Assembly (NCBI GenBank): GCA_026388375.1
Contig: JAPLJX010000197.1
Location: 1-34,114, forward strand
DNA: 34,114 nucleotides
Origin: Deltaproteobacteria bacterium
Lineage (GTDB): Bacteria > Desulfobacterota > Syntrophia > Syntrophales > UBA5619
Direction: 5' to 3'
Shown: positions 4,464-32,603 of the stretch, piece by piece
Layout: each line of letters starts with the position of its first letter
How positions within the stretch are numbered: position 1 is the stretch's first letter
Translations under genes and position numbers: made by a program
Notes under the pieces: generated by a model
Told to the model about the DNA's origin: nothing
The model's database searches: none
What the model saw: the letters and a program-made list of their open reading frames with translations, nothing else

Positions 4464-5215
4464 GGAATCCTCTTTCCTTTCCCATTTCCGCTTCCGGGGT
4501 CGGAAGGTTCCTCGCCGGGAGGCGTTCCCGCGGGGGTCGGCCCGGAATCGTCGCCCAGGGCCTCGCTTTCCAGAAGCCTGAGCCGCAGCGTATAGGACAG
4601 CCAGCCGCTGCTTTGGATCTCCAGCGTGTCCGCCAGACCGGGCCTCTCCGGGAGGGGCATTTTTACCCTTTTTAGGAGCTCTTGTCCAGTCCCATAAAGG
4701 CGGATCGCCATGACGCCGCCCTTGAACGTCAGAACCTCCACGAGCCGCCCGTCGGCGCGTTCGAAGCGGCAGATCAGGGCGCCCGCTTCCCCCTCGCCCC
4801 AGGCCGTCGGCGCCTCTCCGGGCGGGAAAAAGGCCAGACGGATATCCTCCGCCAGCGCCTCTGCAAATGCAGGCGCGTCGCAGGGCGGCACGGCCCGGTG
4901 GACGGTCAGCGTCTCCCCCGCTTCGGCGTCGAACAGCACAAACCCCTCGATCGTCATCAGCGCCGTCCGGAAACCCCGCGTCCGGGGATCAGCCACCAGC
5001 ATCCCGACGGCCGTCCCCTTCGCGCCATCGGGCATGACCGTTTCCAGCGCGTGAACGAGCCGGTACTTCCCCGGCAGGAAGGGCCGCCGGCAGCCTTCCA
5101 GCACGGCGCTTTTCCGGGCCGGGTCGAGGGGCGTCAGGGGTTTCAATCCCGTGCAGGCGCCTACGGTCAGGAGCAGAAGGAAAAGCGGAAAAAGACGGCG
5201 GGGCATCACGTTCAT
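4460..5215 (-). CDS. DUF3261-like outer-membrane lipoprotein, as found in aryl-polyene-type loci
   Basis: Signal peptide with lipobox (LLLTVGAC); family suggested by sequence character and position next to LolA. Confidence 0.65.
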   Translation of the reverse strand: MNVMPRRLFPLFLLLLTVGACTGLKPLTPLDPARKSAVLEGCRRPFLPGKYRLVHALETVMPDGAKGTAVGMLVADPRTRGFRTALMTIEGFVLFDAEAGETLTVHRAVPPCDAPAFAEALAEDIRLAFFPPGEAPTAWGEGEAGALICRFERADGRLVEVLTFKGGVMAIRLYGTGQELLKRVKMPLPERPGLADTLEIQSSGWLSYTLRLRLLESEALGDDSGPTPAGTPPGEEPSDPGSGNGKGKRIP

Positions 5216-5853
5216 TCCACGTTCTCAAACAGGGAGGCAGGCAGGGAGCGGTTGAGCCGCACCTGACTGAAATCCAGTTCGGTGAAGGAGCGTTCGTCCT
5301 CCACCACCCGGACGCCCTTCATCACGCCCGCCTGCTCCCGGGAAAGGGTCAGTTCGATCCGCCGGATCATCTTGCCCCAGGAGGGTTCCCGCGGTACGAG
5401 CGTCACCCGCGGCTCGGGATCGGCCGACAGCGAGGCCTGGAAACGGGGGTTGGCGTCGAACCGGCCCTGCTGCCAGTTCACGATCTCCTCCAGGACCACC
5501 CGCATGGCGGTTAGCGACGCGCCGGTCTCCTCGCGCCAGCCGCCCGGATCCCGCAGGTAGCGCTTCACGGCGCCGCCGTTCATGATCAGGACGCTCCGGA
5601 CGGGACGGTCGTATTCCCAGCGGAGCGAGCCTGGGGCCTGGAAGAAAAATCGCCCCTCGGAGACAAACGGCTTTGTCAGCATCGGCAGCGTCTTCTTCTG
5701 CACGAAGCGGGCCTCGACGGAGGTGATCCGGCGGGAGGCCTCGCGGAGCCCTTCCCAACTGTCGGCCCAGGCAACAAGGAGCGGCAGCAGCAGGATCAGA
5801 CCGAAAAGGGAGATAACCAGGCGGCGCGCCTTGCCGGAAAAAGTTCTCTTCAT
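5212..5853 (-). CDS. LolA-like outer-membrane lipoprotein carrier
   Basis: Signal peptide, then SVEARFVQKKTLPMLTKPFVSEGRFFFQAPGSLRWEYDRPVRSVLIMNGG, a typical LolA_like core. Confidence 0.88.
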   Translation of the reverse strand: MKRTFSGKARRLVISLFGLILLLPLLVAWADSWEGLREASRRITSVEARFVQKKTLPMLTKPFVSEGRFFFQAPGSLRWEYDRPVRSVLIMNGGAVKRYLRDPGGWREETGASLTAMRVVLEEIVNWQQGRFDANPRFQASLSADPEPRVTLVPREPSWGKMIRRIELTLSREQAGVMKGVRVVEDERSFTELDFSQVRLNRSLPASLFENVE

Positions 5854-5855
5854 GC

Positions 5856-6584
5856 TCAGATCATCCCCCCGTTCACGGAGATGACCTGGCCGGTGATGTA
5901 GGAGGCGTCGTCGGAGCAGAGGAAGCGGACCACCTTCGCCACCTCCTCGGGCCGGCCGATCCGCCCCATCGGGATCATCTGCTTGATGTTTTCCACCGGG
6001 GCGTCCCGGATCATCTCCGTATCGATCGGTCCCGGCGCCACGACGTTCACCCGGATACCGAGCCGGGCGACCTCGGAACTTAGGACGCGGCTGGCGGCGA
6101 TGAGACCGGCCTTGGCTGCGGCGTAATTGGCCTGCCCCCGGTTGCCGACCAGGGCCGAAACGGAAGACAGCGAGACGATGGAGCCGCTTTTTCGGCGCAG
6201 CATCTTGCGCAGGACCGGCTTGGTCATGTTGTAGAAGCCGTGGAGGGTCGTATCGATCACCGCGTCCCAGTCCCTCCGGGGCATCATCAGGAAAAGACCG
6301 TCCGCCGTCACCCCGGCGTTGTTCACCAGCACGTCGATCCGTTCCAGCCGCCCGAGGAGGTCGTTCATCGCGCCTTCCGCCTCGGCGGCGTTGCCGACGT
6401 CGAACTTTACCGCCTCACCACTCCCGCCAGCCTCCCGAATCAGCCGCAGGGTCTCCGCCGCCGCCTCGTCGTTGGTTTTATATGTGATTACGATTTGGTA
6501 CCCGTGCGCGGCCAGTTCGACGGCGATGGCCCGACCGATTCCACGGCTGCCGCCCGTAACGACGGCAATCTGCGGTTCACTCAT
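5856..6584 (-). CDS. fabG: 3-oxoacyl-ACP reductase (FabG-like SDR)
   Basis: VVTGGSRGIGRAIA, NNAGVTADGLF, SVSALVGNRGQANYAAAKAG, GQVISVNGGMI. Confidence 0.95.
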   Translation of the reverse strand: MSEPQIAVVTGGSRGIGRAIAVELAAHGYQIVITYKTNDEAAAETLRLIREAGGSGEAVKFDVGNAAEAEGAMNDLLGRLERIDVLVNNAGVTADGLFLMMPRRDWDAVIDTTLHGFYNMTKPVLRKMLRRKSGSIVSLSSVSALVGNRGQANYAAAKAGLIAASRVLSSEVARLGIRVNVVAPGPIDTEMIRDAPVENIKQMIPMGRIGRPEEVAKVVRFLCSDDASYITGQVISVNGGMI

Positions 6585-6613
6585 GATTCCCTCTCCCTAT
6601 GTTTTCCCGGCGT

Positions 6614-8131
6614 TTACGACAACCGTTCCTTCAGCTCCTTCTTCAGGATCTTGCCCGCGGAATTGCGGGGGAAATCCTCGACGAAGACGATCTTCTTGGG
6701 AAGTTTGAAAAGGGCGATCCGGTCCCGGATGGCCGCGAGCAGCGCCTCTTCGGTCAGTTGCGCCCCCTCCTTGAGCAGCACAAAGGCGGCCACGACCTCC
6801 CCCTTCTTCCAGTCCGGCATCCCGACGACGGCCGCCTCCCGCACCTCCGGCAGGGCATGGATCACCCGCTCCACCTCGGCCGGGTAGATGTTTTCCCCGG
6901 AGCTGATGATCATCTCCACCTTCCGGCCGACGATGGTGATGAATCCCTCCTCATCCCGCCGTCCCATGTCCCCCGTGTGAAACCATCCACCCCGCATCGC
7001 CTCCGCCGTCTCGGCGGGTTTTTTCCAGTAACCGGCGAAGACGTTGGGCCCCTTAACGATGATCTCCCCCGCCTCGCCCTGCGCCACGTCGCGGTCCTGC
7101 TCATTCACGATCCTAAGCAGGACGTGGAGCACCTCCTTGCCCACGGAACCGGCCTTCCGGATCGAATCCTCCAGATCCAGGGAGGTGAGACGGAAGGTCT
7201 CCGTCATCCCATATCCCTGGGCAAAGAAGATCCCCTTCTCCTCCTGGTATTTGCGGATCACCGGGAGCGGCATGGGCGCCCCGCCGGCGATGAAGAAATG
7301 GATGTGGGAAAAATCCGCCTTCTCCCATTCCCCGGTCCGGGTGAGGAGCTGGAACATGACGGGCACGGCAAACATGTAATTGATCTTCTCCCGGCAGATG
7401 AGGCCGATCACCTCGGCGGCGTTGTAGAACCCCTTGAGGACGAGGGAGCCGCCCGCATAGAGGATCGGCAGGGCCGAGGCGCCGAGGGCGCCGATGTGGA
7501 ACAGCGGGGCCACGACGAGTGATTTGTAGGAGCGGTTGATCCCGCAACCGATCACCGTGTTAATCGAACCGAACAGGACGTTGCCGTGCGTCAGTACCGC
7601 CCCCTTGGGATCCCCCGTCGTCCCGGAGGTGTACATGATGAACAGGGGATCGGCGAGCGTAACCTCTTCCCGTGGGAGCGGTTCCGCGACGGGAAAGGGG
7701 GTGACGGCTTCCGCGAGAAAGGGATCGTCGCCGGCAGCCCCGCCGTGACGGAAGCAGCGCGGCATCCCCGGCCAGGAGGCCTTCACCTCCCCGACCTTGG
7801 CGGCAAAGTCCGCCGAATAGACGAGAACCCGGGGGGCGCAGTCCCGGAAGATGTATGCGAGCTCCGGAACGGCCAGACGAAAATTGACGGGTACCATGAT
7901 CGCCCCTGTCTTGGCGCATGCGAAGAATATCTCCAGAAACTCCGATGCGTTGGTCATCAGAACGGCCACCCGTTCACCCTTGCCGACCCCCCAGGCCGTG
8001 AGGGCGTGGGCCATCCGGTTCACCCGCTCGTTGAACTCGCGGTTCGTGAAGGAGCGCGCTTCCTCCTCCTTCAGGAACGGCCCCTCCGGATAGATCGCCG
8101 CCCGCTTGAAAATCCATTCGCCTACATTCAT
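6614..8131 (-). CDS. AMP-dependent acyl-CoA synthetase/ligase
   Basis: MYTSGTTGDPKGAVLTHGN, GYGMTE, GGWFHTGDMGRRDEEGFITIVGRKVEMIISSGENIYPAEVE, PRNSAGKILKKELKE. Confidence 0.95.
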   Translation of the reverse strand: MNVGEWIFKRAAIYPEGPFLKEEEARSFTNREFNERVNRMAHALTAWGVGKGERVAVLMTNASEFLEIFFACAKTGAIMVPVNFRLAVPELAYIFRDCAPRVLVYSADFAAKVGEVKASWPGMPRCFRHGGAAGDDPFLAEAVTPFPVAEPLPREEVTLADPLFIMYTSGTTGDPKGAVLTHGNVLFGSINTVIGCGINRSYKSLVVAPLFHIGALGASALPILYAGGSLVLKGFYNAAEVIGLICREKINYMFAVPVMFQLLTRTGEWEKADFSHIHFFIAGGAPMPLPVIRKYQEEKGIFFAQGYGMTETFRLTSLDLEDSIRKAGSVGKEVLHVLLRIVNEQDRDVAQGEAGEIIVKGPNVFAGYWKKPAETAEAMRGGWFHTGDMGRRDEEGFITIVGRKVEMIISSGENIYPAEVERVIHALPEVREAAVVGMPDWKKGEVVAAFVLLKEGAQLTEEALLAAIRDRIALFKLPKKIVFVEDFPRNSAGKILKKELKERLS

Positions 8132-8215: not shown

Positions 8216-9478
8216 TCAAGGCGATTTTGTCGCAGGCGATTCTGTCGCATCCTTCTCGAACACAAGACAGGCATAAGTTCCGCCGAAGGAGATTCCGCTC
8301 AGAAGCGCCTTCTTCACCGGCCGGCGGCGGGCCTCTCCGATCACAAACGGAAGGGAACAGAGGGGCCTCTTCAGGCCGACGGTCGGCGGAACAACCCCTT
8401 CCCGGACCGACAGTGCCAGGGCGGCGGCGCGGATCCCGCCGGAGGCGAAGATCTCTCCCGTCGCCCCCTTGAGCGACGTGATGAGCGGTTTGGCATCCCC
8501 GCCGCCGAAAACCCGTTCATAGGCCGCCGCCTCCAAGGCGTCGGGCTCAAAGCCGCCGTTTGCCGCCGCCTGAATGAGGTCGATGTCCGGCGGTACCGCG
8601 CCCGCCATCCGCATCGCCCTTTCCAGGGCGAATAGAAACCCGCGGGGATCGGCGGGCCAACCCGTCTGCGGCGACGGGGAGGAGGCCAGACCCCACCCCG
8701 TCAATTCGGCATAGGGCTCCGCCCCGCGCTCCCGGGCGAGTTCCCCGGCCTCCAGGCATACGATCCCGCACCCCTCCCCCATGACGGGTCCGTTGCGGTC
8801 AAGATCGAACGGCCGGGCACCCTCCGAGCCGCCATCCGCCGGGGAGAGGGCGCGAAAATGGTCGAGGGCCTCGTAGAAGAAAGGGGAGAGAATGTCCACA
8901 CCGCCGGCAAGAATCACGTCCGCCGTGCCGCGCCGGATCTCCATGGCGGCGTAAGCGATCGCCGTCTCGGCGGAGACAGCCTGATGGTTGACCGTCGTGT
9001 TCACCCCGCGAAACCCCAGTTCGATGGAGGCGTGACCGGCGGGGGCGTTCATCACCGTGTTGGGCACATGGATCGGATTGACCATGCCGGGGCCTTCCGT
9101 AAAAAGGATCCGGGCGCTCTGGACCTTGAGCTCCGTGTTCCCGAAGGCCGTCCCCATGACGATGCCGATCCGGTCCCGGTTGGCGTCGGTTACAGCGATC
9201 CCGGCATCACCCAGAGCCATACGGACGGAGGCCGTCGTCATGGCCGAAAGTCGGTCCATCTTTCTTAAGTTCTTCAGGGAAATGAAGTCCCGCGGCTGAA
9301 AAGCACGGATCTCCGCCCCCAGGTGCGACCCGAAACCGTCGGTCGGAAAGGCGGCGATCTCCCGGATTCCTGTCTCGCCGCGCCACAGGGCTTCCCGGAA
9401 CCGATCCTTGCCCACCCCCAACGGCGTGACCATCCCAATTCCGGTGACGACGACCCGTCTGACAACGTGATTACCCAT
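8216..9478 (-). CDS. Catalytically degenerate beta-ketoacyl synthase (chain-length-factor-like KS-beta)
   Basis: KS fold (RRVVVTGIGMVTPLGVG..GISFGGTYACLVF). Nucleophile region reads NTTVNHQAVSAETAI (no Cys), first His region IQAAANGG, second His region LKGATGEIFASGG. Confidence 0.87.
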   Translation of the reverse strand: MGNHVVRRVVVTGIGMVTPLGVGKDRFREALWRGETGIREIAAFPTDGFGSHLGAEIRAFQPRDFISLKNLRKMDRLSAMTTASVRMALGDAGIAVTDANRDRIGIVMGTAFGNTELKVQSARILFTEGPGMVNPIHVPNTVMNAPAGHASIELGFRGVNTTVNHQAVSAETAIAYAAMEIRRGTADVILAGGVDILSPFFYEALDHFRALSPADGGSEGARPFDLDRNGPVMGEGCGIVCLEAGELARERGAEPYAELTGWGLASSPSPQTGWPADPRGFLFALERAMRMAGAVPPDIDLIQAAANGGFEPDALEAAAYERVFGGGDAKPLITSLKGATGEIFASGGIRAAALALSVREGVVPPTVGLKRPLCSLPFVIGEARRRPVKKALLSGISFGGTYACLVFEKDATESPATKSP

Positions 9479-10730
9479 GCCGCACCTCCTCTTCCCGGAA
9501 GCGGCCGAAGATCACCGTCGTGTTGTTCCCACCGAAGGCGAAGGAGTTGGAGAGGACAACGTCCGGCGCGACGGACCGGGCGCCTGTCGTGACGTAATCC
9601 AGATTACACTCCGGATCGGGCGTCTCACAGTGGATCGTCGGGGGAATGAAGCCTTCCGTAATGGCGAGGACGCAGACGACCGCCTCCAGCGCGCCGGCGG
9701 CGCCGAGGGTATGGCCGTGCATCGACTTCGTCGAACTGACGGGTATGCGCCAGGCGCGAGATCCGAAGACCTCCTTGATCGCCCGCGTCTCCATGAGATC
9801 GTTGGGCGGCGTCGCCGTGCCGTGGGCGTTGATGTAATCGACCGACTCCGGCTGAAGCCCCGCGTCCGACAAGGCCGCCCGCATCGCCCGGACCGCTCCC
9901 GAGGCGCCGACATCCGGCGTGGTCATGTGGTGTGCGTCGCAGGTCACGCCGTAGCCCAGCACCTCGGCCAGAATCCGCGCCCCCCTCTCCTTCGCGCTCA
10001 CGAGGGATTCGAGGATCAGGATCCCCGCCGCCTCCCCGAGGGTCAGGCCGGCGCGGTTGCCGGAAAAGGGACGGCAGTATGCGGGATCCACGGCCTTCAG
10101 CGCGTTGAAGGCGGCGAAGGTCATCCGGCAGAGAGGCTCCGTCCCGCCGGCGATCATCGCGCGGGCGGCGCCGCTCCGGATCAGGTCCATCCCCAGGCCG
10201 ACGGCCGTCGCACCGGAGGAGCAGGCGGTCATGATCGTTGCCTTGGGCCCCCAGAGGTTGAACTGCGTTGTCAGATGGTTGGCCGTGGCGGCGCAGGATA
10301 CTGGGGACAGTCGGGAAAAACGGTTCGCCCTCCCCGCCTTGCGCAGGTAGTCCTGGAAGAAGGCTTCCGCCTCTAACAGGCCCCCGGCCCCGCCGCCGAT
10401 GACGACACCCATCTCCTCCCGCAGCGCCTCCGGAACAGGATTGAGCCCCGCCTGTGCGAGGGCCTGGAAGGTCGCCGTCAACGCCATGAGGTCCGAACGG
10501 GACATCCGCTTCAGCGATACGCTACGGGGGATCGTGTCGCGGGGGCGAAAGTCTTTCACCTGGGCGCCGTTATGGGTGCGGAACAGTGTCGTGTCGAAGA
10601 GGGTGATCGGCCCGATGCCGCATTCGCCCCGGCGAAGGGCAGCGGCGAAATCCCGGGTATCGCCCGCGACGGCGTTCACCGTTCCCAGGCCCGTGATCAC
10701 CACCCGTTTTTTATCATTCGCGATCGCCAT
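9471..10730 (-). CDS. Beta-ketoacyl-ACP synthase (KS-alpha, FabF-like, intact catalytic triad)
   Basis: MTACSSGATAVG, NAHGTATPPND, KSMHGHTLGAAG. Overlaps the degenerate KS by 8 nt. Confidence 0.94.
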   Translation of the reverse strand: MAIANDKKRVVITGLGTVNAVAGDTRDFAAALRRGECGIGPITLFDTTLFRTHNGAQVKDFRPRDTIPRSVSLKRMSRSDLMALTATFQALAQAGLNPVPEALREEMGVVIGGGAGGLLEAEAFFQDYLRKAGRANRFSRLSPVSCAATANHLTTQFNLWGPKATIMTACSSGATAVGLGMDLIRSGAARAMIAGGTEPLCRMTFAAFNALKAVDPAYCRPFSGNRAGLTLGEAAGILILESLVSAKERGARILAEVLGYGVTCDAHHMTTPDVGASGAVRAMRAALSDAGLQPESVDYINAHGTATPPNDLMETRAIKEVFGSRAWRIPVSSTKSMHGHTLGAAGALEAVVCVLAITEGFIPPTIHCETPDPECNLDYVTTGARSVAPDVVLSNSFAFGGNNTTVIFGRFREEEVRHG

Positions 10731-10743
10731 GAGCCATTCCCTT

Positions 10744-10868
10744 AGGGCCTGTAACAAAATTAGTGGAACAGTTAGCCGTTCGTGGTGAGCTTGTCGAACA
10801 ATGAATGGCTGCCCTTCGACAAGCTCAGGGCGAACGGATTTTGTAGCAGTTATTTTTTTACAGGCCCT
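10744..10868. mobile_element. About 125-bp MITE/REP-like element with terminal inverted repeats and an internal imperfect palindrome
   Basis: Left end AGGGCCTGTAA (10744-10754), right end TTACAGGCCCT (10858-10868); flanking TTA on both sides; inner arms cgttcgtggtgagcttgtcgaac / ttcgacaagctcagggcgaacg. Confidence 0.75.
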
Positions 10869-12357: not shown

Positions 12358-12369
12358 CCTTGAACATGA

Positions 12370-14079: not shown

Positions 14080-14853
14080 TTATCCTTCAGCAAGCCGCCC
14101 CTCATAGAGCTCGCGTATTTCACGGATCAATACAGAGAGGCGGAAGGCGGGATCGCCATAATCGGGGTCGAACGCACCGATTCTCTCCACGTCAATGGCG
14201 ACAGGGATGCAGGTATTGAGCCGGAAGCGTCCCGGGACAAATAGACGGTTCGTGTTGCGGATCATCAGACATTGAATCGGCGCGCGGCAGTACCGGGCGA
14301 TGCTGAAGGCCCCCTTGTTGAACGGGCCGAGCCGGCCGGTCCGGCTCCGGGTCCCCTCGGGAAAAATGAAGATATTGCCGCCGGATGCAAGATATTCTCT
14401 GATATTCTCAACATGGCTGATCATGAGCGACGCATAATCGTCTCCCGCCTGCGAGGGGATGTAACCGGATTGCCGCAGAATCCAACTGAAGACAGGCACG
14501 TTGAAAAAGGCGTTCTTGACGATCGTCTTCTGTTTCTCGAACAGGGAGATGAGGAGAATCGGATCGAGATACGACAGGTGGTTGCAGACGATGATGGACG
14601 AGCGGATCGTCCGGACCTCATCCCGGATATTCAGGGTGACCCCGAGGGTGATGAGGCGCAGCAATCGGAACAACCCCTGGAAGAAAAGGCAATTCAAGCG
14701 CTGGAAGGCGGCTTCCCGATCCGTGCGCCGAAGCGTGGCCGCCGCATAACGGGGGGCAAATAAGAGGACGAATCCCAACGTGAAATAGCCCCACAGCAGG
14801 AGCGTCACGATGACATCCATCGCCGGTTTGATATGTCTCACGGGAAAAACCAT
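14080..14853 (-). CDS. 1-acyl-glycerol-3-phosphate acyltransferase-like (PlsC superfamily)
   Basis: HX4D motif CNHLSYLDP, FPEGTRSRTGRLGPFNKGA; N-terminal TM. Start chosen at MVFPVRHIK, just after the upstream KS stop. Confidence 0.88.
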   Translation of the reverse strand: MVFPVRHIKPAMDVIVTLLLWGYFTLGFVLLFAPRYAAATLRRTDREAAFQRLNCLFFQGLFRLLRLITLGVTLNIRDEVRTIRSSIIVCNHLSYLDPILLISLFEKQKTIVKNAFFNVPVFSWILRQSGYIPSQAGDDYASLMISHVENIREYLASGGNIFIFPEGTRSRTGRLGPFNKGAFSIARYCRAPIQCLMIRNTNRLFVPGRFRLNTCIPVAIDVERIGAFDPDYGDPAFRLSVLIREIRELYEGRLAEG

Positions 14854-14861
14854 GGCGGGAT

Positions 14862-16100
14862 TCAGACAAACCTCTTGATCAACAGGTTCGTATTGACGCC
14901 GCCGAAGGCAAAGTTCTGGATGGACGCAACACGTATCGGCTGTTCCCGCAGACGCATGGTATGCCGGATCATGGCGCATCGTTCGTCGGGTTCTTCCAGA
15001 TTGAGCGTCGGGGCGATAAACCCGTCCTGCATCATATAGAGGGTCAGGATGGTCTCGATGGCGCCGCAGGAACCCATCGTATGCCCCATGTATCCCTTGA
15101 GACCCGTCACGAAAGGGCCGCCACCGTAAACGGCATGGATGGCCTGGGCTTCGATCACATCGCCCATTTTGGTTCCCGTGGCGTGGGCGCTGACGAAATC
15201 GACCTCATCGGTCGCCAGAGCCGCATCATCGAGGCCAAGACGCAGGGTTTCGCTGATTCCGGCCCGATTCGGCAGGATGAGATCGCCTCCGTTGTTGTTG
15301 CAGGCAAAACCCACGACCTCGCCCAGGATCACGGCCCCGCGCTTCCTCGCCTGTTCGTATTCCTCCAACAACACCGCCCCGGCGCCTTCTCCGACGACCA
15401 GTCCGTCGCGCTGCCGGTCGAATGGCCGCGGCGTGCACCGGGGACGGTCGTTGAAGGCCGTGGAACAGGCCATCAGATTGTCGAAGACGGCCACGGTGGT
15501 CGTATCGTACTCATCCGCCCCGCCGCACAGCATCGCGTCCTGCATGCCGTACTTGACTGCCTCGTAGCCGAAGCCGATGGACTGACTGCTCGTCGTGCAG
15601 GCCGTGGAGGAGGAGATGACCCTGCCGGTGATGCCGAACATCTTCGTAATGTTCACCGCCGTCGTATGGACCATGGACTTGAGGTAATCGACGGCGCCGA
15701 TGGCGCGAAACTCGGACTGGGAAGCGCCGAAAAAGGTTTTATAGATCTCCCTCTGGACGGTGGGGCTGCCGTGGGTGGAGCCGAAGGCCACGCCCAAGCG
15801 GCCGGAGGTTACAAATTCCGGCGGCAGGCCGGCCTGATCGAGGACCTCTTTGGCCACCTGACAGGCGTAATACGCCACGGGGCCCATGGTCTTCCGGAAA
15901 GTGCGCCGGAAGTCGAAGGCGATCGGATAATCCACCGTCCCAAAGACCTGGGAGTGGATGAACTTTGACAGGAGGTGATCCTCCCGGAGCGTTTTGACGC
16001 CGGAGACACCCCGCCGGAGGCTGTCCACGATCTCCGCACGCGTGTGGCCGATGGGCGTGATGGCCGAACAGGCCGTGATGACGACTCTTCTTCCCTTCAT
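14862..16100 (-). CDS. Beta-ketoacyl-ACP synthase (intact)
   Basis: SSTACTTSSQSIGFG, SAHATGTKMGD, KGYMGHTMGSCG. Confidence 0.93.
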   Translation of the reverse strand: MKGRRVVITACSAITPIGHTRAEIVDSLRRGVSGVKTLREDHLLSKFIHSQVFGTVDYPIAFDFRRTFRKTMGPVAYYACQVAKEVLDQAGLPPEFVTSGRLGVAFGSTHGSPTVQREIYKTFFGASQSEFRAIGAVDYLKSMVHTTAVNITKMFGITGRVISSSTACTTSSQSIGFGYEAVKYGMQDAMLCGGADEYDTTTVAVFDNLMACSTAFNDRPRCTPRPFDRQRDGLVVGEGAGAVLLEEYEQARKRGAVILGEVVGFACNNNGGDLILPNRAGISETLRLGLDDAALATDEVDFVSAHATGTKMGDVIEAQAIHAVYGGGPFVTGLKGYMGHTMGSCGAIETILTLYMMQDGFIAPTLNLEEPDERCAMIRHTMRLREQPIRVASIQNFAFGGVNTNLLIKRFV

Positions 16101-16148: not shown

Positions 16149-16436
16149 CTATGCATGCGTTTCCCGCCCCCTCACCCTGACCAGCCCCTCGACGTAGTCA
16201 ATAATCTGGTTGATGGTCCGGATTCCCATGGCCATTTTTTTCTCTTCGTGGGTCAGCTCGGACTTGAGAAACCGTTCGATTCCCAAAAGCAGTTCGATGG
16301 CGTCCACACTGTCAAATTCGTAGGTCTCTCGCAGATCTTTATCGAGGCCGGGCTGTTCGATCTCAAACTCGCGGCTGAAAATATTTAGTATTTCCGCGGT
16401 GATCTGTTCTCTTGTCATCGGCGTCCCATCTTTCAA
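16149..16436 (-). CDS. Acyl carrier protein
   Basis: About 90 aa, phosphopantetheine site EFDSVDAIELLLGIE; likely internal start at MTREQITAEIL. Confidence 0.87.
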   Translation of the reverse strand: MKDGTPMTREQITAEILNIFSREFEIEQPGLDKDLRETYEFDSVDAIELLLGIERFLKSELTHEEKKMAMGIRTINQIIDYVEGLVRVRGRETHA

Positions 16437-16747
16437 ATTTCATATTTACGATCGGGTTTTCGGGGGGACTATAATGATTTTTTAGACCGATGGCAAGCCC
16501 TACTTTCTCTAACATGATGCCGGCAGAAAAGTCAGCGGGTAATGTTCGGATCATCGGTTCCGACATCAGCGACGCCACTGCGGGTATCATCCTTGTGCAA
16601 CTTCACCATCCGTTTACGATCGCGGAAAAAATTTGATATACACAAAGATCGCTGATATAGAGGCACGCGATATGCTCAAACTTCACTTTTCCTTCGTGTC
16701 AGGCACGAGGCAGGCTATGCGGCATACATCCGGGCACATCTCATTTC

Positions 16748-17164
16748 ATGGGTGTTATTATGAAGATATCTGAAGTGCCACAGGATGATATAAAGACCCT
16801 GAACGGTGTGAAAAAAGCCCTATACGCTGTTGATGATCAAGGCTGTTATGCCAAAACCACCACCGGGGGATGGGAGGCGGAAGAAGTCGTCCTCAACCAG
16901 GTCATCGGCGACTTTGATGAGAAGGCCGGAGAGACCGCATCCCGGGTCAGAAATAACGAAACATCGCCGATAGAATACTTTATGTATAAGAATTGGATGG
17001 ACTCTCCGACTCTTGCCCAGGCCATGGGTCTTTACCACTGGCAGGTAAAGCGGCATTTTAAACCCTCCATTTTCAAGAAGCTCGACGATAGGACGCTTGC
17101 CGGGTATGCCACGCTCTTCAGGACATCGGTGGACGTTTTAAAGAATTTCCCGGGTGAGGATTAA
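16748..17164 (+). CDS. Conserved-looking small protein of unknown function, translationally linked to the BtrH-like gene
   Basis: Stop TAA at 17162-17164 immediately before the ATG of the next gene; YHWQVKRHFKPSIFKKLDDRTLAGYATLFRTSVDVLKNF. Confidence 0.7.
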   Translation: MGVIMKISEVPQDDIKTLNGVKKALYAVDDQGCYAKTTTGGWEAEEVVLNQVIGDFDEKAGETASRVRNNETSPIEYFMYKNWMDSPTLAQAMGLYHWQVKRHFKPSIFKKLDDRTLAGYATLFRTSVDVLKNFPGED

Positions 17165-18169
17165 ATGGCGGAATTGAAGCCATTGGAACACAGGCATTAT
17201 GCCCATTGCGAAAGCGGCGTGGTCACCGCGCTCCTGAGATGTCACGGTCTTGATCTTTCCGAACCCATGGTGTTCGGCATCACGGGCGGCCTGACCTTCG
17301 CCTATATACCCTTCATCAAAATAACGAACATGCCTTTGATATCGTACCGCATGCTCCCCGGTTCGATCATCAAGGGGGCCGGGAAAAACCTCGATGTCCA
17401 ATTCAGGACCAGGAGGTACAGGGAAAAAGAAAAGGCCCTTGCCGAACTCACTACCCTTGTTGACCGTGGTGAAATCGTCGGCCTGCAGACATCGGTTTAC
17501 TGGCTCCCCTATTTCCCGCCGGAGATGCGTTTCCAGTTTAACGCGCACAATCTCATCGTCTACGGGCGGGAAGGGGACGAATTTCTCATCAGCGACCCTG
17601 TTTTTGAACATCCCGTCCGGATCAAGGCGGATGATCTGCAGAACGCCCGTTTCGCCAGGGGAAGGCTTGCCCCGAAGGGTTTCATTTACTATCCTGTCCG
17701 GGTCAATCCCTCCATCGATTTGCGGGAAGCGATCAAAAAATCCATAAAACGAACGGTGCGCATGATGCTTTATGCCCCCATCCCCTTCATCGGCGTCAAG
17801 GGTATTCATTATATGGGAAGACAAATCGAACGACTAAAGATCCGCGAAGACCCGAGGTACGTCCGCCTCTTCCTCGGCCATATCGTGCGGATGCAGGAGG
17901 AAATTGGTACGGGAGGGGGCGGTTTCCGGTTCATCTATGCGGCCTTTCTCCAGGAAGCCGGGCGCCTCATGGGATCTACCCGACTGGAGGAGGCATCGCG
18001 CATGATGACGGAGGCAGGCGATATGTGGCGCCGCTTTGCCTCAGCCTGCGCCAAGGCCTGTAAAAGCAAGACGGGGGATTTTGATGTAGCGGAAATCGCC
18101 CAACTGGTGCAAAAATGCGCAATACAGGAGAAACATGTCTACTCCCATCTCAAATCGATTAAATTATAG
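17165..18169 (+). CDS. BtrH N-terminal domain/DUF4872-like protein (putative ACP-dependent acyl/aminoacyl transferase)
   Basis: EHRHYAHCESGVVTALLRCHGLDLSEPMVFGITGGLTFAYIPF matches the BtrH-N signature (HCxSG), LISYRMLPGSI, later NAHNLIVYGREGDEFLISDP. Confidence 0.8.
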   Translation: MAELKPLEHRHYAHCESGVVTALLRCHGLDLSEPMVFGITGGLTFAYIPFIKITNMPLISYRMLPGSIIKGAGKNLDVQFRTRRYREKEKALAELTTLVDRGEIVGLQTSVYWLPYFPPEMRFQFNAHNLIVYGREGDEFLISDPVFEHPVRIKADDLQNARFARGRLAPKGFIYYPVRVNPSIDLREAIKKSIKRTVRMMLYAPIPFIGVKGIHYMGRQIERLKIREDPRYVRLFLGHIVRMQEEIGTGGGGFRFIYAAFLQEAGRLMGSTRLEEASRMMTEAGDMWRRFASACAKACKSKTGDFDVAEIAQLVQKCAIQEKHVYSHLKSIKL

Positions 18170-19687
18170 ATGAAAATATACCTCATTCATCCGAAGACGC
18201 CGGAAAATTTCTGGGCCATGCGGGGGGCGCTGGATATCGTAGGCAAGCATAAGACACTTATGCAAAATACCGCCCTCTTGACTTTGATCGCCTTGACACC
18301 CAAAGATCTGGATGTTGAATATATTTATTGCGATGAGAATATCGCGCCCATTCATTGGGATATCGAGTGCGATCTTGTAGGGATTACAGGTTATACCCTC
18401 CAATTTGAACGGATGGGTTTCATCAGCGCCCAATTTCGAAAACATGGCAGACCTGTTGCCGTCGGTGGCATTTACGCGACACTTAATCCGGATAACGCAA
18501 AAAATATATGTGATCATCTATTCATCGGTGAGGCGGAGTATACCTGGCCGCAGTTTCTAAGAGACTGGGCTCAGGGCCGTGCAAAAACTGTCTATAAGCA
18601 AGAAACATTTGTCGATATCAAAGACTCGCCCGCACCGGATCTCTCCTATATAAAAGCAAAAGATTACAACTACTTTTCATTACAGACCAGCCGCGGATGT
18701 CCCAACAACTGTGACTTCTGTGATGTGGTTCGGGTCACGGGAAGAAAATACAGGAATAAATCAATCGACCAGATTATGCTTGAAGTTAAGAACGCCCATG
18801 CCTTCGGGGCGGGAACCATCTTTTTCTCCGATGACAATTTTGTTGTGAATCGAAAATTCACCATTGAACTTCTGCAGGAAATTATTAAATGGAACAGAAC
18901 TCTTGATATGCCGGTATCTTTCAGTACCCAGGCAACCATTATGATCGGCGCCGATGAAGAAATCGTCAAACTCCTGGCTGACGCGCGCTTCACGGTTATC
19001 TTTCTCGGACTTGAAACAATCAATAAGGACTGTCTTGAAGAAGTCAATAAAGGACAGATGGTCCAATACGATCCTTTTCAGGTGATTCCAAGGATTTCAC
19101 GTTATGGGATCATCCCGTTTATTGGAATGATCGTAGGATTTGACCATGATACGCCTGCTGTTTTCAAGGAAATAGAAGACTTTCTCGATAAAACCGCAAG
19201 CCCCTTTGCATCGATCAGTGTACTGAACGCCCCCAACCATACCCCGTTATATGAAAGAATGAAAAGCGCTGGCCGCCTCGTTGAAGATTTTCGGGGGTTC
19301 TGGCATCTCACGACGAATATCATCCCAAAACAACTGACCCCCCATGAACTATATTTTGGCCAAAAGCAGCTATTTAAAAAATTATATGAGCCTGAACATT
19401 TCGAACGCCGCATGATCGGTTGGCTCAATAACGTAAAATACTTCCCCGATACCTATTCCACGAGGAAAAAAAATCTCTTCCGGATTGTTATGATCATAAA
19501 GATTTTCCGTCATTTTACTTTACGGGTTCCTGCGCCGGTGAGAATGATGTTTTGGAATATCTTGAAAGAAACATGGAGGATCGATCCACGCCTCATTTCA
19601 AGGGCTGTTTCAATGCTTGTTCAGTATTGGCATTACTATGATTTCTCCCACAAAGAATCCGAGGAAAAGATGGAATTGGATGGATAG
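18170..19687 (+). CDS. B12-binding-domain radical SAM protein (DUF4070-like C-terminus)
   Basis: QTSRGCPNNCDFCDVVRVTGRKYRNKS, EYIYCDENIAPIHWDIECDLVGITGYTLQFERMGFISAQFRKHGRPVAVGGIYATL. Confidence 0.92.
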   Translation: MKIYLIHPKTPENFWAMRGALDIVGKHKTLMQNTALLTLIALTPKDLDVEYIYCDENIAPIHWDIECDLVGITGYTLQFERMGFISAQFRKHGRPVAVGGIYATLNPDNAKNICDHLFIGEAEYTWPQFLRDWAQGRAKTVYKQETFVDIKDSPAPDLSYIKAKDYNYFSLQTSRGCPNNCDFCDVVRVTGRKYRNKSIDQIMLEVKNAHAFGAGTIFFSDDNFVVNRKFTIELLQEIIKWNRTLDMPVSFSTQATIMIGADEEIVKLLADARFTVIFLGLETINKDCLEEVNKGQMVQYDPFQVIPRISRYGIIPFIGMIVGFDHDTPAVFKEIEDFLDKTASPFASISVLNAPNHTPLYERMKSAGRLVEDFRGFWHLTTNIIPKQLTPHELYFGQKQLFKKLYEPEHFERRMIGWLNNVKYFPDTYSTRKKNLFRIVMIIKIFRHFTLRVPAPVRMMFWNILKETWRIDPRLISRAVSMLVQYWHYYDFSHKESEEKMELDG

Positions 19688-19858
19688 GGAATTTTAAGGC
19701 TATTGGCGGTAAAAATCTGATCAATCCCGGTTGACGCGTACTTTCATGAAAATGGATGAGATCAAAACCCGATAGCAAGTAACCTCGCTTTCACCTACCA
19801 ACTCTTTAGTCCCAGACGGCTACACCAGATGAAGATTACAGGTTATAATTTGCAAGAA

Positions 19859-19886
19859 AAAGGCAGGGTTATATGACCCTGCCTTT
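19859..19886 (+). terminator. Hairpin, perfect 11-bp stem, 6-nt loop, about 170 bp downstream of the radical SAM stop
   Basis: aaaggcagggt-tatatg-accctgccttt. Confidence 0.5.
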
Positions 19887-20077
19887 CGATTTGGTACGCC
19901 CGGTTTACTAACTAAGTTTCTTCCGCAACCCGACATGTTTCGTGATATCGGTATTGGTTTTGACTGGTTGTTCACTTGCCTGATCCATCTCATTTAGCGA
20001 GGTTGATCTCATTGAGCGCCGCTTTCAGCCCATTGGCAAGCTTGTCCAGCTCAATTTATCACTACCGGAAACAAAAG

Positions 20078-20239
20078 TCACTCCTTTGGAGGTTCGATGG
20101 ATGTGCCAAACACTGCGATGCTCACCCCGATGATTAAGCCTGCGATACACCCAAACATCCCGCCGGCAAATCCATTCCAAAAAGCGCCAGTCACTGCGCC
20201 AACAATGCCGAGTCCAATCATGACTATCCACCGCCACAT
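20078..20239 (-). CDS. Small (53 aa) glycine-rich membrane protein
   Basis: MWRWIVMIGLGIVGAVTGAFWNGFAGGMFGCIAGLIIGVSIAVFGTSIEPPKE*, preceded by AAGGAGGAATTTAACC. Below the supplied ORF length cut-off. Confidence 0.65.
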   Translation of the reverse strand: MWRWIVMIGLGIVGAVTGAFWNGFAGGMFGCIAGLIIGVSIAVFGTSIEPPKE

Positions 20240-20315
20240 GGTTAAATTCCTCCTTTCGGATCAGTTAACTCTCATATACGCAGAGGTACTTCACCGTTAA
20301 TTAGGGTGACCAGCG

Positions 20316-20353
20316 GAAGGGAGCGATGTTACCCTGCCGACATCGCTCCCTTC
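20316..20353. terminator. Hairpin, perfect 14-bp stem, 10-nt loop, between minus-strand genes
   Basis: gaagggagcgatgt-taccctgccg-acatcgctcccttc. Confidence 0.5.
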
Positions 20354-20412
20354 GTCTTAATTTCGATGATCTTTTTTCAATCAAGGGATGCAATCCCCAT
20401 TGGAAATATGGA

Positions 20413-20745
20413 TCATTCTGACGGTTTGACAAATTTTTCCGCGCGGGAGGTGTGTGCTTCATCGTCGCAGTATCCTTCCCACAGAATCAATTCCGGATGT
20501 CCGTCCAGTGAGGTCCAATTTTCTACTTTGACGTTTGCTTTTCTTGTCTGGGTCTCATCAAAAACGCGACAATAGTATGCCTTCTTTTTGTCCGCCGGTC
20601 GGGTCACGCCTTTAAGTTGCCATACCCAGTCCGGTTCCTTCTTTAGTTCCATCAACATATATCTCCCGGCCATGTCAGGTATCTCTTTAGGTCCGGGCAA
20701 CTTTATTTCTCCATCGTTAGCGGACTTTTGTTTCCCCAAAAGCAT
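20413..20745 (-). CDS. Hypothetical protein
   Basis: 110 aa with RBS-like AAGGAGAATAAAA before ATG; regular composition. Confidence 0.6.
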   Translation of the reverse strand: MLLGKQKSANDGEIKLPGPKEIPDMAGRYMLMELKKEPDWVWQLKGVTRPADKKKAYYCRVFDETQTRKANVKVENWTSLDGHPELILWEGYCDDEAHTSRAEKFVKPSE

Positions 20746-20904
20746 TTTTATTCTCCTTGTATATTAACCTTCAAAGGTGGTTAAGGTCCTACGGCCTTAT
20801 AAAATGCAAAACGACAGTTTCTTCCGGCATGTTGTACCTTACTCACCCCCAAAATCTTGGCGAGGAACTATCACCCTACTATGTACATGGTCAAACGTGC
20901 CAGT

Positions 20905-21267
20905 CTACTTTTTAGCCGGGACATAGGTGACAGTCACTTGCTCGTTTGGACTGGCCTGATTAGATTTAGCGACAATATTAATGACATTTTTGCCTTCGGT
21001 CAGCGTGACATTGGTGGAGTACTTGCCGTCCTTAACAGGCACGTCTGCATCATTAATGCTCACCTTTGCCCCTGCACTTTCGGTTCCCTTCACACGGCCG
21101 CTTACCATTACCGTAGATGTATTAACAGTGGTACCATCCTTAGGCGTGTCGACCTTCAGAATTAGAGTCATCCCTTGCTCCCAAGGGGGGTTCTCACACC
21201 CAGTCAGTGGCAAGGCCAATAGAGAAAGCACGAATAAAATGCCTATTAATTTGAAAATGTTATTCAT
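20905..21267 (-). CDS. Small lipoprotein with a bacterial Ig-like domain
   Basis: Lipobox LALPLTGCE; TPKDGTTVNTSTVMVSGRVKGTESAGAKVSINDADVPVKDGKYSTNVTLTEGKNVINIVAKS. Confidence 0.75.
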   Translation of the reverse strand: MNNIFKLIGILFVLSLLALPLTGCENPPWEQGMTLILKVDTPKDGTTVNTSTVMVSGRVKGTESAGAKVSINDADVPVKDGKYSTNVTLTEGKNVINIVAKSNQASPNEQVTVTYVPAKK

Positions 21268-21435
21268 GATTAACTCCTTTCTTGAATTATTATTTGTTGA
21301 CATGTATCAATAAATAAGGAGGTTCCCCCGCCAAGTATCCCATCCAAGACTACAACCTGCGAGGCACCTGTCCGGGAGATCCGGTTGCGATGGGAAATTT
21401 CCAGGAGGGTTACTCCCGTTTTGTCCACTGGATAT

Positions 21436-24168: not shown

Positions 24169-24210
24169 TGATCAAAAAACTGCTTAGTCCCCATGAATCG
24201 ATATCAGGGA

Positions 24211-28285: not shown

Positions 28286-29158
28286 TCAATACCTCTCTAA
28301 TTCAATAACCGCGTAATTCCCCCGCTGGTCTCTGTTGATATGCAACAGCGTCTTTGCTTGAAAAAGACCCACGAACAGGCTTACGCCGCAGGCCGTAGCC
28401 GAGCCGGAATATCCATAGTCGCGGAGATAATCAAACTCGGCAGCGGGTCGCAAAGTTTCCCTCAAGGCGGTGGCTTCATCATCGCCGATCAGCGCGCCGA
28501 AAGAGACCACTTCCACCGGCGATCTTTCCCGTTCCCTGATCCATCTCATACATGAAGGGCCGTCCCGGAATGACATGATCTCTGTAAACGCCCCGCAGGC
28601 CCCCTCCTTCTCAAGCTTTACGTAAAACCAGCCGCTCCCGTCAACCATTCGCCAGCCGCGACCACTCGGTTCTTTCCTGTTCATCCGGGAAAGAGAGGAC
28701 TCATCCACGCCGCCGATCAGGGCGCTCCTTTCCGCCCCCCCGGCAAAATCCGCCTTCAGCAGTTCCAGTCCCCTCTCGAAGGAAAGGTGCTGGCTGGAAA
28801 CGGTGATGTTGCGGCCCCGGATACCCAGATTCCGGGCAAGATGGAAAGCCGCCGTATTGCTCATCGTATTGATGAATCCAAAAGGTCTTGGCAGGGACTT
28901 GGACTCATAGATCTCATCGAGGACATCCGCGGTCTCGCCAAGGTTGCCGTCCTCCGTCGTCAGGTAGACGGCCGTAGCAGCCTCAAGGGGCTGCTGGTGG
29001 ACACATTGAAGGGCGCCAAGCAGCGAAAGCAGGATAAATCGGTTAACCCTGCGGAAATTTTCCTGGGTATAGCGTCTTATCTCCTCTTTTAGAAAATGGA
29101 TGTCCGCGTTCGCTTCCCCGGTAAAGGCAGAGGCGCTGTGAATGTACATTTCGCTCAC
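28286..29158 (-). CDS. Short degenerate beta-ketoacyl synthase-like protein (Ketoacyl-synt_2-like)
   Basis: 290 aa; KS-like FINTMSNTAAFHLARNLGIRGRNITVSSQHLSFERGLELL with no nucleophile Cys; C-terminal half shortened; overlaps the intact KS by 4 nt. Confidence 0.75.
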   Translation of the reverse strand: MSEMYIHSASAFTGEANADIHFLKEEIRRYTQENFRRVNRFILLSLLGALQCVHQQPLEAATAVYLTTEDGNLGETADVLDEIYESKSLPRPFGFINTMSNTAAFHLARNLGIRGRNITVSSQHLSFERGLELLKADFAGGAERSALIGGVDESSLSRMNRKEPSGRGWRMVDGSGWFYVKLEKEGACGAFTEIMSFRDGPSCMRWIRERERSPVEVVSFGALIGDDEATALRETLRPAAEFDYLRDYGYSGSATACGVSLFVGLFQAKTLLHINRDQRGNYAVIELERY

Positions 29159-30330
29159 TCTTTATTGTCCTTATTGGAGAGGATCAGGGTGGTGCAGTTG
29201 CCGCCAAACCCGAAGTAGTTCAGCATAAAAATGCCCTCCCCGGCTTCCATATTTTCCATCAGGGGCGTCAGTTTCAAGTTCTCATCCACTTCCCTGAAGC
29301 CGGGGGTGGAGGGGACAAAACCCGCCTTGACCGATTCCGTGAACAGTATCAGCTCGTTGACGCCGCAGGCGCCCACGGTGTGGCCTATGAAAGGCTTGAC
29401 GCACGTCACGGGTGGAATATCACGCCCGAAGGTCGCCCTCATGGCGGCGCACTCGGTCTTGTCATTGTTCTCCGTTCCCGTGGCATGGGCCTTGACGGCG
29501 CAGATATCTTCCGGTCCAATCCCCGCCTGCTTGAGGGCCCTGTTCATCGTTTCCGCAGCGGCAGATCCTTCCTCGTCGTTGCTGGTGATGCTGTAGGTAT
29601 CGCAGAGATTCGCCCCACCAAGGTGCATAAAATCACTGGCCTTCCTGCGCATCCCCTCCAGCACCACCGCACCGCAAGCCTCGCCGAGGATCAGGCCGTC
29701 CCGCGTCCTGTCAAAGGGCCTGTACTCCGAGGCGGCAATGGATTTCAGGGCTTCAAAACCGTAAAAACCGAGGTTGTTGAAGAGGTCGTAGCCGACGACC
29801 ATGGCCCTCTCGATGTGCCCTTCCGAGATCATGGCTGCGGCATAAAGCAAGGCGTTGGCGCTCGAAGTGCATGCCGTGGTGAAGGAATAGCAGTTACCCC
29901 CTATTCCGAACTTCTCCACGATGGCGCCGGCTATTTTGCCGTACCCAGAGGACGACTGGAGAAACATGCTCGACACGGTTGCAGACGTCTTGCGATGCTT
30001 GCCCTCAAACACGGGAACGTCCATGGACGTCGAGCCGAAGAACAGATGCATATCCTTGATCTCCGCATGGTTCAAGCCTGCATCGCGGAGCGCCCGGGAC
30101 ACCGCAGAAAAGAGAATCGCATAGAAATATTCCGCGGAGCGGTTATCCAGCTTATCCCCCTCGTTGCGGTTGATGAGATAGTACGGCCTGGTATAGGGCA
30201 GGCGGGCAATATTAAAGGGGATATGCTCAAGCTTTATCCTTTTATGGCGCACCGCATCAACAATCCCCTCCAGAGAATCTCCGAGGGAGCAGGTCATCGC
30301 CTTTCCCGTTACAAATGCCCTTCTTTTCAA
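29155..30330 (-). CDS. Beta-ketoacyl-ACP synthase (intact)
   Basis: TTACTSSANALLYA, KAHATGTENND, KPFIGHTVGACG. Confidence 0.93.
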   Translation of the reverse strand: MKRRAFVTGKAMTCSLGDSLEGIVDAVRHKRIKLEHIPFNIARLPYTRPYYLINRNEGDKLDNRSAEYFYAILFSAVSRALRDAGLNHAEIKDMHLFFGSTSMDVPVFEGKHRKTSATVSSMFLQSSSGYGKIAGAIVEKFGIGGNCYSFTTACTSSANALLYAAAMISEGHIERAMVVGYDLFNNLGFYGFEALKSIAASEYRPFDRTRDGLILGEACGAVVLEGMRRKASDFMHLGGANLCDTYSITSNDEEGSAAAETMNRALKQAGIGPEDICAVKAHATGTENNDKTECAAMRATFGRDIPPVTCVKPFIGHTVGACGVNELILFTESVKAGFVPSTPGFREVDENLKLTPLMENMEAGEGIFMLNYFGFGGNCTTLILSNKDNKE

Positions 30331-30334
30331 AATT

Positions 30335-30610
30335 CTACTCCGGCTGAATAAAGTCGGCGAAGGTGTTCAACGATCTCATAACCCGCCTCATTTCTTTGCT
30401 GTCGGTAATGGCGATGTTGTATTTATTCTGTATGGCCATAGAGATCTGCAGGGCATCTATTGAGTCCAGGCCGAGCTTGGAATCTCTGCCGAAAAGGGAT
30501 TCTTCGTCACCGATCTCTCCGGGATCAGTCATTACATCACACTCCTCTACGATCAATCTCTTCAATTCCATTTTCAGTCTCTCATCAAGAGAGCCTTTCA
30601 TCGTTTTCAT
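30335..30610 (-). CDS. Acyl carrier protein
   Basis: SKLGLDSIDALQISMAIQNKY phosphopantetheine site; 91 aa. Confidence 0.9.
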   Translation of the reverse strand: MKTMKGSLDERLKMELKRLIVEECDVMTDPGEIGDEESLFGRDSKLGLDSIDALQISMAIQNKYNIAITDSKEMRRVMRSLNTFADFIQPE

Positions 30611-31836
30611 ATCTCCCCCCGCCTCCGCAATAAGATTACCGTCAAGGTCAGCATGACGACCCCGAAAATAAACAGGTACAGGCTTTTCGGGAGAACATCG
30701 GAAACATTGCCGTTCCGCAGGAAGATATCGAGGAATCCCTCCAGTCCCCAGGACATGGGAGACATATTGGCAAGATCCTGCATAAACCCGGGCATGACAA
30801 ACTTAGGCACCATGATTCCACCCAGAGCGCCAAAAATGAGATTCAGGACCCCCCCGACGGTGGTTGCCTGCTCCGTCGTCCTGGCTGCAGAAGCAATGAG
30901 GAGCGCCATAGAGATGGCGCTGAAGCTTACGGAAGCTGCGATCAGGATAAGGCCGCCCATTGAATCCCCCAGGGTGAGGGCGGTGCCGCCGCACAGCGGC
31001 ACGATATAAACACCCATGGCAATCATGATGATCACCTGGATTGCGTTGATCAGAAGATAAGGCGCCATCTTGCCCATAATCAGACAGAACCTCGATACAT
31101 TCATGCTTTTGAGGCGCATGAGGGTGCCCTGCTCCCTTTCGGAAATAAAGGTGTTGGATATGGGTATGACAATAAAAAACATGGAAAATACGAGCCAGGC
31201 GGGAACGCTCTGCTGGACGGCGGACGGAATCTTGGAGTACCGTCCTTCCTTGTAAACGTAATGGACCTCGACCAAGCTCTCCTCGGCTGCCGTCATTTTC
31301 TCCCTGTCGATTCCGGCCAAGGGCAGGAGACTGCCCATACGGTCGATGAAGGCATCCCATGTCAACTTCGCCAGTTTTCCATCCAACGCGCTTTTCAAAA
31401 CAAGCTGGGTCTGGACGTTTACCGCAGGATTGACCAGGAGTTCCAGGGGTTTTTCATCCTTACCCTTTCCATTTTTCTCCACGAAGGCGGAGAAGTTTTC
31501 TTTGATGATCAGGGCAAACTTGTAATCCCGGGCAAGCATCTGTTCCTTGATCTTATCCGCGACCTTATCCGCGGCGGCCTCTTTCTCTATGAGGTGAAAT
31601 CGGAAAGTACGGAGTGCATCCATTGCCTTCAAGAATGCTTCCGATTTTTTTCCCGCATCCTGGTTCACGGCGAGGACATCTATGCTGACGGCGCCATGGA
31701 GTTCAAAAAGATCCCGCATCGCCAGGGACATGATCATGATGAAAACTGCGGGCATGATGAAGAGGACGGTTATGGCATGGATATCCCGGATGATCAGTAA
31801 AAATTCCTTTTTCAGAATGTACAGAATTTTAATCAT
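30607..31836 (-). CDS. ABC-2 type transporter permease
   Basis: N-terminal TM, large periplasmic loop, SMFFIVIPISNTFISEREQGTLMRLKSMNVS, C-terminal TM bundle. Confidence 0.93.
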   Translation of the reverse strand: MIKILYILKKEFLLIIRDIHAITVLFIMPAVFIMIMSLAMRDLFELHGAVSIDVLAVNQDAGKKSEAFLKAMDALRTFRFHLIEKEAAADKVADKIKEQMLARDYKFALIIKENFSAFVEKNGKGKDEKPLELLVNPAVNVQTQLVLKSALDGKLAKLTWDAFIDRMGSLLPLAGIDREKMTAAEESLVEVHYVYKEGRYSKIPSAVQQSVPAWLVFSMFFIVIPISNTFISEREQGTLMRLKSMNVSRFCLIMGKMAPYLLINAIQVIIMIAMGVYIVPLCGGTALTLGDSMGGLILIAASVSFSAISMALLIASAARTTEQATTVGGVLNLIFGALGGIMVPKFVMPGFMQDLANMSPMSWGLEGFLDIFLRNGNVSDVLPKSLYLFIFGVVMLTLTVILLRRRGEI

Positions 31837-31850: not shown

Positions 31851-32603
31851 TCAGCCTTCGTCGCGCAGCCTGACGTCTGTCAGTTTGAGGAAAAGTTTCT
31901 CAAGGGTTCTATGGCCAAAATTATTCACGGCATCGTCACGTGTCAAAATGGCCTGTTTGTCGCCGTGGAGGATGATTTTTCCCTCGTCTATAATGGCAAT
32001 GTCATCGGACACCTGCTCGATCTCATCCATGTAATGGGATGTGTAGATGATTGTCGTCTTCCGCTCCCGGTTGATCTTCCGTATCGTCTCCAGGATGTAG
32101 TTCCTGGATTGTGTATCGACGCCCACCGTAGGCTCATCGAGATAGAGTATCTCCGGATCGTTTAACAGGCCTATTGCAAGGTTAAGGCGTCTTTTCATGC
32201 CGCCGGAAAACTTATCCACACGCTTTTTCGCAAAGCGCTGCATGCTTCCGATATCGATGCAAAATTCCATGCGCTCTTTCAGTTTCTTCCCCTTCAGACC
32301 CCACAGGGCGCCGAAATATTCCAGGTTCTCGAAAGCCGTCAGCAGTCTATAGAAAGCCAAGGCCTGGGGCACGTAACTGCATTTTAACTGGATGGCTTTA
32401 AGCTCACGATCGAGATCCAGGCCGTCGACGGTTATGCATCCGCTTTCTTTTCGGATGACGCCCGTAAGAATGGAGATCAGGGTGGTCTTTCCAGCGCCGT
32501 TTGGACCCAGCAGCCCCAAGATAGAGCCACGACGCACCGAAAGGCTCACATCCTTGAGAACGGGCTTGTCGTAGGACTTGTAAAGATGGTTGATCTCGAT
32601 CAA
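31851..32603 (-). CDS. ABC transporter ATP-binding protein
   Basis: GLLGPNGAGKTTLISILTG, KFSGGMKRRLNLAIGLLNDPEILYLDEPTVGVD. Confidence 0.96.
   Translation of the reverse strand: MIEINHLYKSYDKPVLKDVSLSVRRGSILGLLGPNGAGKTTLISILTGVIRKESGCITVDGLDLDRELKAIQLKCSYVPQALAFYRLLTAFENLEYFGALWGLKGKKLKERMEFCIDIGSMQRFAKKRVDKFSGGMKRRLNLAIGLLNDPEILYLDEPTVGVDTQSRNYILETIRKINRERKTTIIYTSHYMDEIEQVSDDIAIIDEGKIILHGDKQAILTRDDAVNNFGHRTLEKLFLKLTDVRLRDEG

Follow-up and report, generated by a model that had tools for sequence, protein, structure and literature searches.

A conserved DarG-DarH gene pair in a Syntrophales genome in which DarA and DarB were not found: a candidate two-gene acyl-transfer unit

In Azoarcus sp. 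BH72, a gene cluster with a DarH homologue, darE, underlies a pigment that is predicted to consist of a polyene acid esterified with a dialkylresorcinol (PMC3949708). CcbD works by a ping-pong mechanism, in which a carrier-protein-bound acyl group is handed to a cysteine and from there to an amine, with a Cys-His-Glu triad (PMC12945683). A literature search returned nothing on the function of DarG or DarH, nor on such clusters in Syntrophales. Here we describe a DarG-DarH pair in a Deltaproteobacteria bacterium of the Syntrophales (GCA_026388375.1, contig JAPLJX010000197.1). The window, by which we mean the whole stretch of 34,114 nucleotides that was analysed, comes from a metagenome assembly of 504 contigs, and only part of the expected pathway genes lie on its contig. 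Its features are:

5212..8131, minus strand: AMP-ligase, FlxB/FabG-like reductase and LolA2-like carrier, resembling genes of flexirubin and aryl-polyene clusters
8216..10757, minus strand: two more ketosynthase genes, belonging to the same type II assembly-line set
10858-13895: tripartite tricarboxylate transporter genes
14080..14979, minus strand: PlsC-type acyltransferase (PF01553, 1.2e-24)
14862..16100, minus strand: KS3, beta-ketoacyl-ACP synthase with intact Cys-His-His motifs (PF00109/PF02801; motif check)
16149..16436, minus strand: ACP1, with a DSV phosphopantetheine motif, divergent from darG (PF00550, 5.1e-6)
16748..17164, plus strand: DarG, small partner protein (ORF; NCBIfam DarG_fam NF053536)
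17165..18169, plus strand: DarH, predicted BtrH_N + DUF4872 acyltransferase (NCBIfam DarH_acyl NF053550; Pfam PF14399/PF16169)
18170..19687, plus strand: B12-binding-like radical SAM protein with DUF4070 (Pfam Radical_SAM + DUF4070)
28286..29158, minus strand: KS-like protein (no Pfam match; KS His motifs not found), possibly of the chain-length-factor type
29155..30330, minus strand: KS4, ketosynthase (PF00109/PF02801)
30335..30610, minus strand: ACP2, with a GLDSID motif (PF00550)
30607..31836, minus strand: ABC-2 permease, in the canonical dar order (PF12698)
31851..32603, minus strand: ABC transporter ATPase, in the canonical dar order (PF00005)

Gene positions and the gapless packing of the three plus-strand frames, as given by an earlier reading made from the sequence alone, were confirmed: a TAA stop codon abuts the ATG of darH at 17164/17165 and a TAG stop codon abuts the ATG of the radical SAM gene at 18169/18170, while the minus-strand genes for ACP1, KS3 and PlsC diverge from them. 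Pfam assigned PP-binding, ketoacyl-synt N and C, Acyltransferase, BtrH_N with DUF4872, and Radical_SAM with DUF4070 to the products of the ACP-KS-PlsC and plus-strand genes. For ACP1, an internal ATG (16418) is a more likely start than the listed TTG. Of the two ketosynthases further along, the one at 9471-10757 carries the active-site motifs, which were not found by the same motif check in the one at 8216-9478. Elsewhere in the window (25852-26868), a protein showed a weak match to AAT, the acyl-CoA:6-aminopenicillanic acid acyltransferase, which stayed below the cut-off (E 0.011).

The small protein upstream of darH, to which the sequence-only reading had assigned no family, scored 154.3 bits against the NCBIfam DarG family (NF053536; cut-off 70, E 1.9e-45), and its status as an orphan is thereby ruled out; the flexirubin DarG equivalog model NF053545 gave 134.6 bits, under its cut-off of 170. 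DarG probably starts at position 16760 and spans 134 amino acids, because Met5 of the 138-residue frame is the conserved start among homologues (M in 108 of 113). Its AlphaFold model comprises a less certain N-terminal beta-hairpin, a long helix and a C-terminal helix-turn-helix of the Cro/CI type, with a pLDDT of about 96 over residues 60-130. Fold searches with this model returned many short Cro/CI matches with probabilities near 1, all to DNA-binding regulators including SinR, the 434 and P22 repressors and NGO0477, a prophage helix-turn-helix protein whose structure (3kxa) was the top yet weak match at E 0.029. Two basic positions, K/R101 and R102, are conserved across DarG homologues, and a Pfam scan of DarG found no helix-turn-helix match at E values up to 1.

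DarH was identified with 475.9 bits against DarH_acyl NF053550 (cut-off 300), and its nearest named relative, at 80% identity, comes from the Syntrophaceae metagenome assembly UBA10514. The DarH model (pLDDT 83.6) matched the folds of CtaG, AziU3/U2 and CcbD over more than 330 columns, with E values from 1e-9 to 5e-7 and TM scores of 0.65-0.73. AziU3/U2 shares this fold and forms an aziridine, neither an ester nor an amide. PDB sequence searches with DarG and DarH profiles gave nothing significant. In line with the earlier proposal of a BtrH-type enzyme with conserved Cys and His, DarH has a BtrH_N domain, and Cys15, the cysteine of the HCESG motif, and His128 are each invariant in all 109 homologues, accompanied by Asp144 (106 Asp, three Glu). 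Together these residues form a putative Cys15-His128-Asp144 catalytic triad.

Pairing of the two genes was examined in 197 genomes, namely the window genome and its relatives. DarG occurred in 64 and a strong DarH in 65, all 64 DarG genomes had DarH, and at each of the 86 DarG places in these genomes DarH lay directly downstream on the same strand. Several genomes have two or three pairs, and tandem arrays repeat DarG-DarH as a unit; G077, G105, G132, G136 and G141 are among those with tandem or multiple pairs. In a wider sample of 80 DarH loci, drawn from diverse bacteria, DarG again adjoined DarH or lay shortly upstream in nearly all. Of the exceptions, two loci are close to the end of a contig, and a third has DarG a few kilobases away on the opposite strand. 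The order conserved across these loci is DarA-DarB-DarG-DarH-ABC ATPase-ABC-2 permease-ACP-KS-KS-like, and homologues of the ABC ATPase (69/80), ABC-2 permease (68/80), ACP2 (68/80), KS4 (62/80) and KS-like gene (47/80) were found near the pair. The window holds the last five members of this order at 28286-32603, so that both blocks are present, though 10 kb apart. The linkage of a BtrH-like gene to ACP and KS genes with a dedicated small partner, as supposed from the sequence alone, thus extends across genomes, and the pair is real, widely conserved and already named, found here in a variant setting without its supposed substrate pathway. Neither of the outcomes that the earlier reading had named as refuting it, a lack of co-occurrence with ACP/KS genes or a loss of the conserved Cys/His in homologues, was observed.

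Mirror-tree analysis gave a partial correlation of 0.53 (95% CI 0.41-0.65) between DarG and DarH, compared with 0.00-0.16 between DarG and the ABC ATPase, permease or KS4. The known transporter pair of ABC ATPase and permease, used as a control, also reached 0.53, and KS4 and the permease, which are not known to touch, reached 0.54. This pattern favours a role of DarG as partner of DarH, and co-inheritance of immediate neighbours could give the same pattern.

Using profiles and proteins of close relatives, we found neither DarA nor DarB in the window genome (G000) or in the four other pair-bearing genomes of the same genus (G001, G007, G008, G009), while the controls were recovered (G019 and G071 for DarB, G074 for DarA). 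The DarB profile matches in the window genome (top E 6e-5) are at the generic KSIII/FabH-type level seen across the phylum, and a DarA or DarB hidden elsewhere in this genome is rejected on these searches. Among the 64 pair-bearing genomes, 32 were without DarB and 60 without DarA. DarA and DarB were both nearby in 61 of the 80 wider loci and neither was in 12; those of the latter with long flanks belong to Syntrophaceae, other deltaproteobacteria (Desulfatitalea, Desulfobacteraceae, Desulfuromonadaceae) and a spirochaete, groups that are largely anaerobic. A dependence of DarA on oxygen, which is hypothetical, would explain this distribution. About nine changes of DarB presence are needed on the DarH tree, and loss or gain was therefore recurrent. 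In a sister genus (G015, G016, G018, G019), DarB was present and DarA was not found, so that the cyclohexanedione would be expected to remain as the product of DarB.

In several relatives from other families DarG-DarH is preceded by rSAM-KS-KS-DH-ACP1-KS3-PlsC-PlsY, and in the window genome the KS-KS-DH-PlsY part lies on another contig (C495). At five loci (L034, L036, L133, L135, L137) a PlsY-like glycerol-3-phosphate acyltransferase gene (PF02660, 1.8e-32 in L034) follows PlsC upstream of DarG, which points to glycerolipid assembly in those clusters. The genes on C495, together with the AMP-ligase, FlxB-like reductase and LolA2-like carrier, suggest a type II polyene-lipid pathway, and the chain is probably a polyene, as judged from gene content only.

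The sequence-only reading had counted the radical SAM gene as a third member of the module. Nucleotide homology to G008 and G001, two genomes of the same genus, ends near 18171 and is picked up again near 28286, within the KS-like gene. The DarH and KS-like stretches, which are 10.1 kb apart in the window, are separated in these two genomes by between a few hundred and about 900 bases; the KS-like gene adjoins DarH in G007 and G009 as well. The intervening 10-kb segment (18170-28283) is of lower GC content, is not at that site in the same-genus relatives and may reflect either a genuine insertion or a join made in assembly, and GC3 drops from 0.66 to 0.49 at the DarH/radical SAM junction. Orthologues of the radical SAM protein (75-78% identity) are encoded on other contigs. 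The G008 orthologue neighbours genes for methylmalonyl-CoA mutase and amidohydrolases, whereas those of G071 and G090 lie within a cluster of the polyene-lipid type; in G071 a lipid A-type acyltransferase gene and an MMPL exporter-methyltransferase gene precede it. The protein itself has a CX3CX2C motif at residues 177-184 (CPNNCDFC), and its B12-binding match of 27.3 bits is below the Pfam cut-off of 32.1. Because its orthologues lie elsewhere and homology breaks at the junction, the radical SAM gene is not, by these comparisons, part of the conserved DarG-DarH unit, and its abutment on darH is private to the window contig. G071 is rearranged at the same site past DarH, because only a 33-base match to the end of the KS-like gene follows DarH there (contig C69, locus L132, 6097-6129), and the complete gene lies on contig C36.

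We propose, as the reading that is on balance just probable, that DarG and DarH form an acyl-transfer unit within a type II fatty-acid or polyene-type cluster and serve an acceptor other than a resorcinol, with DarG as a dedicated partner. A finished acyl chain, which we infer to be ACP-bound because ACP genes neighbour the pair, would be transferred from the carrier protein to Cys15 of DarH as a thioester and then, with the participation of His128 and Asp144, to a nucleophile. In canonical clusters this nucleophile is thought to be the phenol of a dialkylresorcinol; here, an acceptor other than a resorcinol is proposed because DarA and DarB are missing, and it would most likely be another lipid of the same cluster, either the product of KS4, the KS-like protein and ACP2 or a glycerolipid made with PlsC. 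DarG, a protein of helix-turn-helix fold made together with DarH, would act as a subunit or specificity factor instead of a free regulator, and the conjugate would then be exported by the ABC-2 transporter and the LolA-type carrier.

Doubtful, though the most substantial of the alternatives, is the reading in which DarG regulates transcription of the cluster as a Cro/CI-type protein and accompanies DarH without assisting it; DarH would then act alone like CcbD and CtaG. The confidently modelled helix-turn-helix of its C-terminal half, the regulators among its fold matches and the conserved basic residues are what such a protein would present, and a small partner is not described for CcbD in PMC12945683. 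However, the top fold E value is only 0.03 and Pfam detected no such domain; DarG also accompanies each copy of DarH, even in tandem arrays, and its evolutionary distances track DarH and not the remaining cluster. We regard as unlikely that DarH is an amide-forming enzyme which acylates an amine or amino lipid with the ACP-bound chain, the proposal made from the sequence: its structural relatives CcbD and CtaG form amides from carrier-bound acyl groups and resorcinol genes were not found in the window genome, but the window held no recognisable gene for an amino lipid or for the supply of an amine, and for Azoarcus an ester link between polyene and resorcinol is predicted (PMC3949708).

Somewhat less likely again, a resorcinol-type acceptor might still be made through an unrecognised replacement of DarA and DarB in an otherwise ordinary flexirubin/DAR pathway. 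The remaining dar order from the ABC ATPase to the KS-like gene is kept, and the loss of DarB looks recent, because DarB is present in G071 and G018, whose DarH proteins are close relatives; yet DarB was found in none of the five same-genus pair-bearing genomes, and half of all pair-bearing genomes share this lack. Least probable is a functional DarG-DarH-radical SAM operon whose third enzyme modifies the chain, since the break in homology at the DarH stop codon, the GC3 step and the orthologues on other contigs, with their neighbours in G008, speak against what the gapless abutment and the polyene-lipid-type clusters of G071 and G090 would suggest. Conservation of the radical SAM gene as third member is ruled out by this homology break and these orthologue positions.

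The reading of DarG-DarH as an acyl-transfer unit can be extended, more tentatively and with less than even confidence: the pair would serve type II polyene-lipid pathways generally as their off-loading module, rather than being an enzyme pair for dialkylresorcinols. In anaerobes without DarA, and often without DarB, it would attach the chain to a lipid other than a resorcinol, and DarG would be a helix-turn-helix fold that was recruited to serve as a subunit of the enzyme. If so, an undescribed, pigment-like lipid would be made by these anaerobes, and the pair points to an unexplored lipid in those related to Syntrophaceae. Despite its naming after dialkylresorcinol synthesis, the function of the pair is set apart from resorcinol making, because among the window genome and its relatives half of the genomes that bear it are without DarB and nearly all are without DarA. 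Genomes free of DarA and DarB offer natural backgrounds for finding the true acceptor of DarH, and the small protein DarG gains a testable role, that of an enzyme partner with a regulator-like fold.

Among described systems, the dar cluster of Azoarcus sp. BH72 is alike, by its published description, in having a small conserved hypothetical gene, darD, beside the BtrH-like darE, together with an ABC transporter, ACP and KS; it differs in having darA and darB, neither found in the window genome, next door, and its gene letters differ, since Azoarcus darG and darH are other genes (PMC3949708). The lincosamide condensing enzymes CcbD and LmbD share the fold of DarH and provide carrier-dependent ping-pong transfer via a catalytic Cys as a working model, but have only about 14% identity to DarH, a Cys-His-Glu triad and an amino-sugar acceptor. 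To our knowledge, no DarG-like partner accompanies CcbD or LmbD. CtaG of closthioamide biosynthesis, the top fold match, is 11-12% identical to DarH and forms an amide in another pathway; the PDB titles of its variant structures name C11, H128 and D144, which correspond in type to C15, H128 and D144 of DarH.
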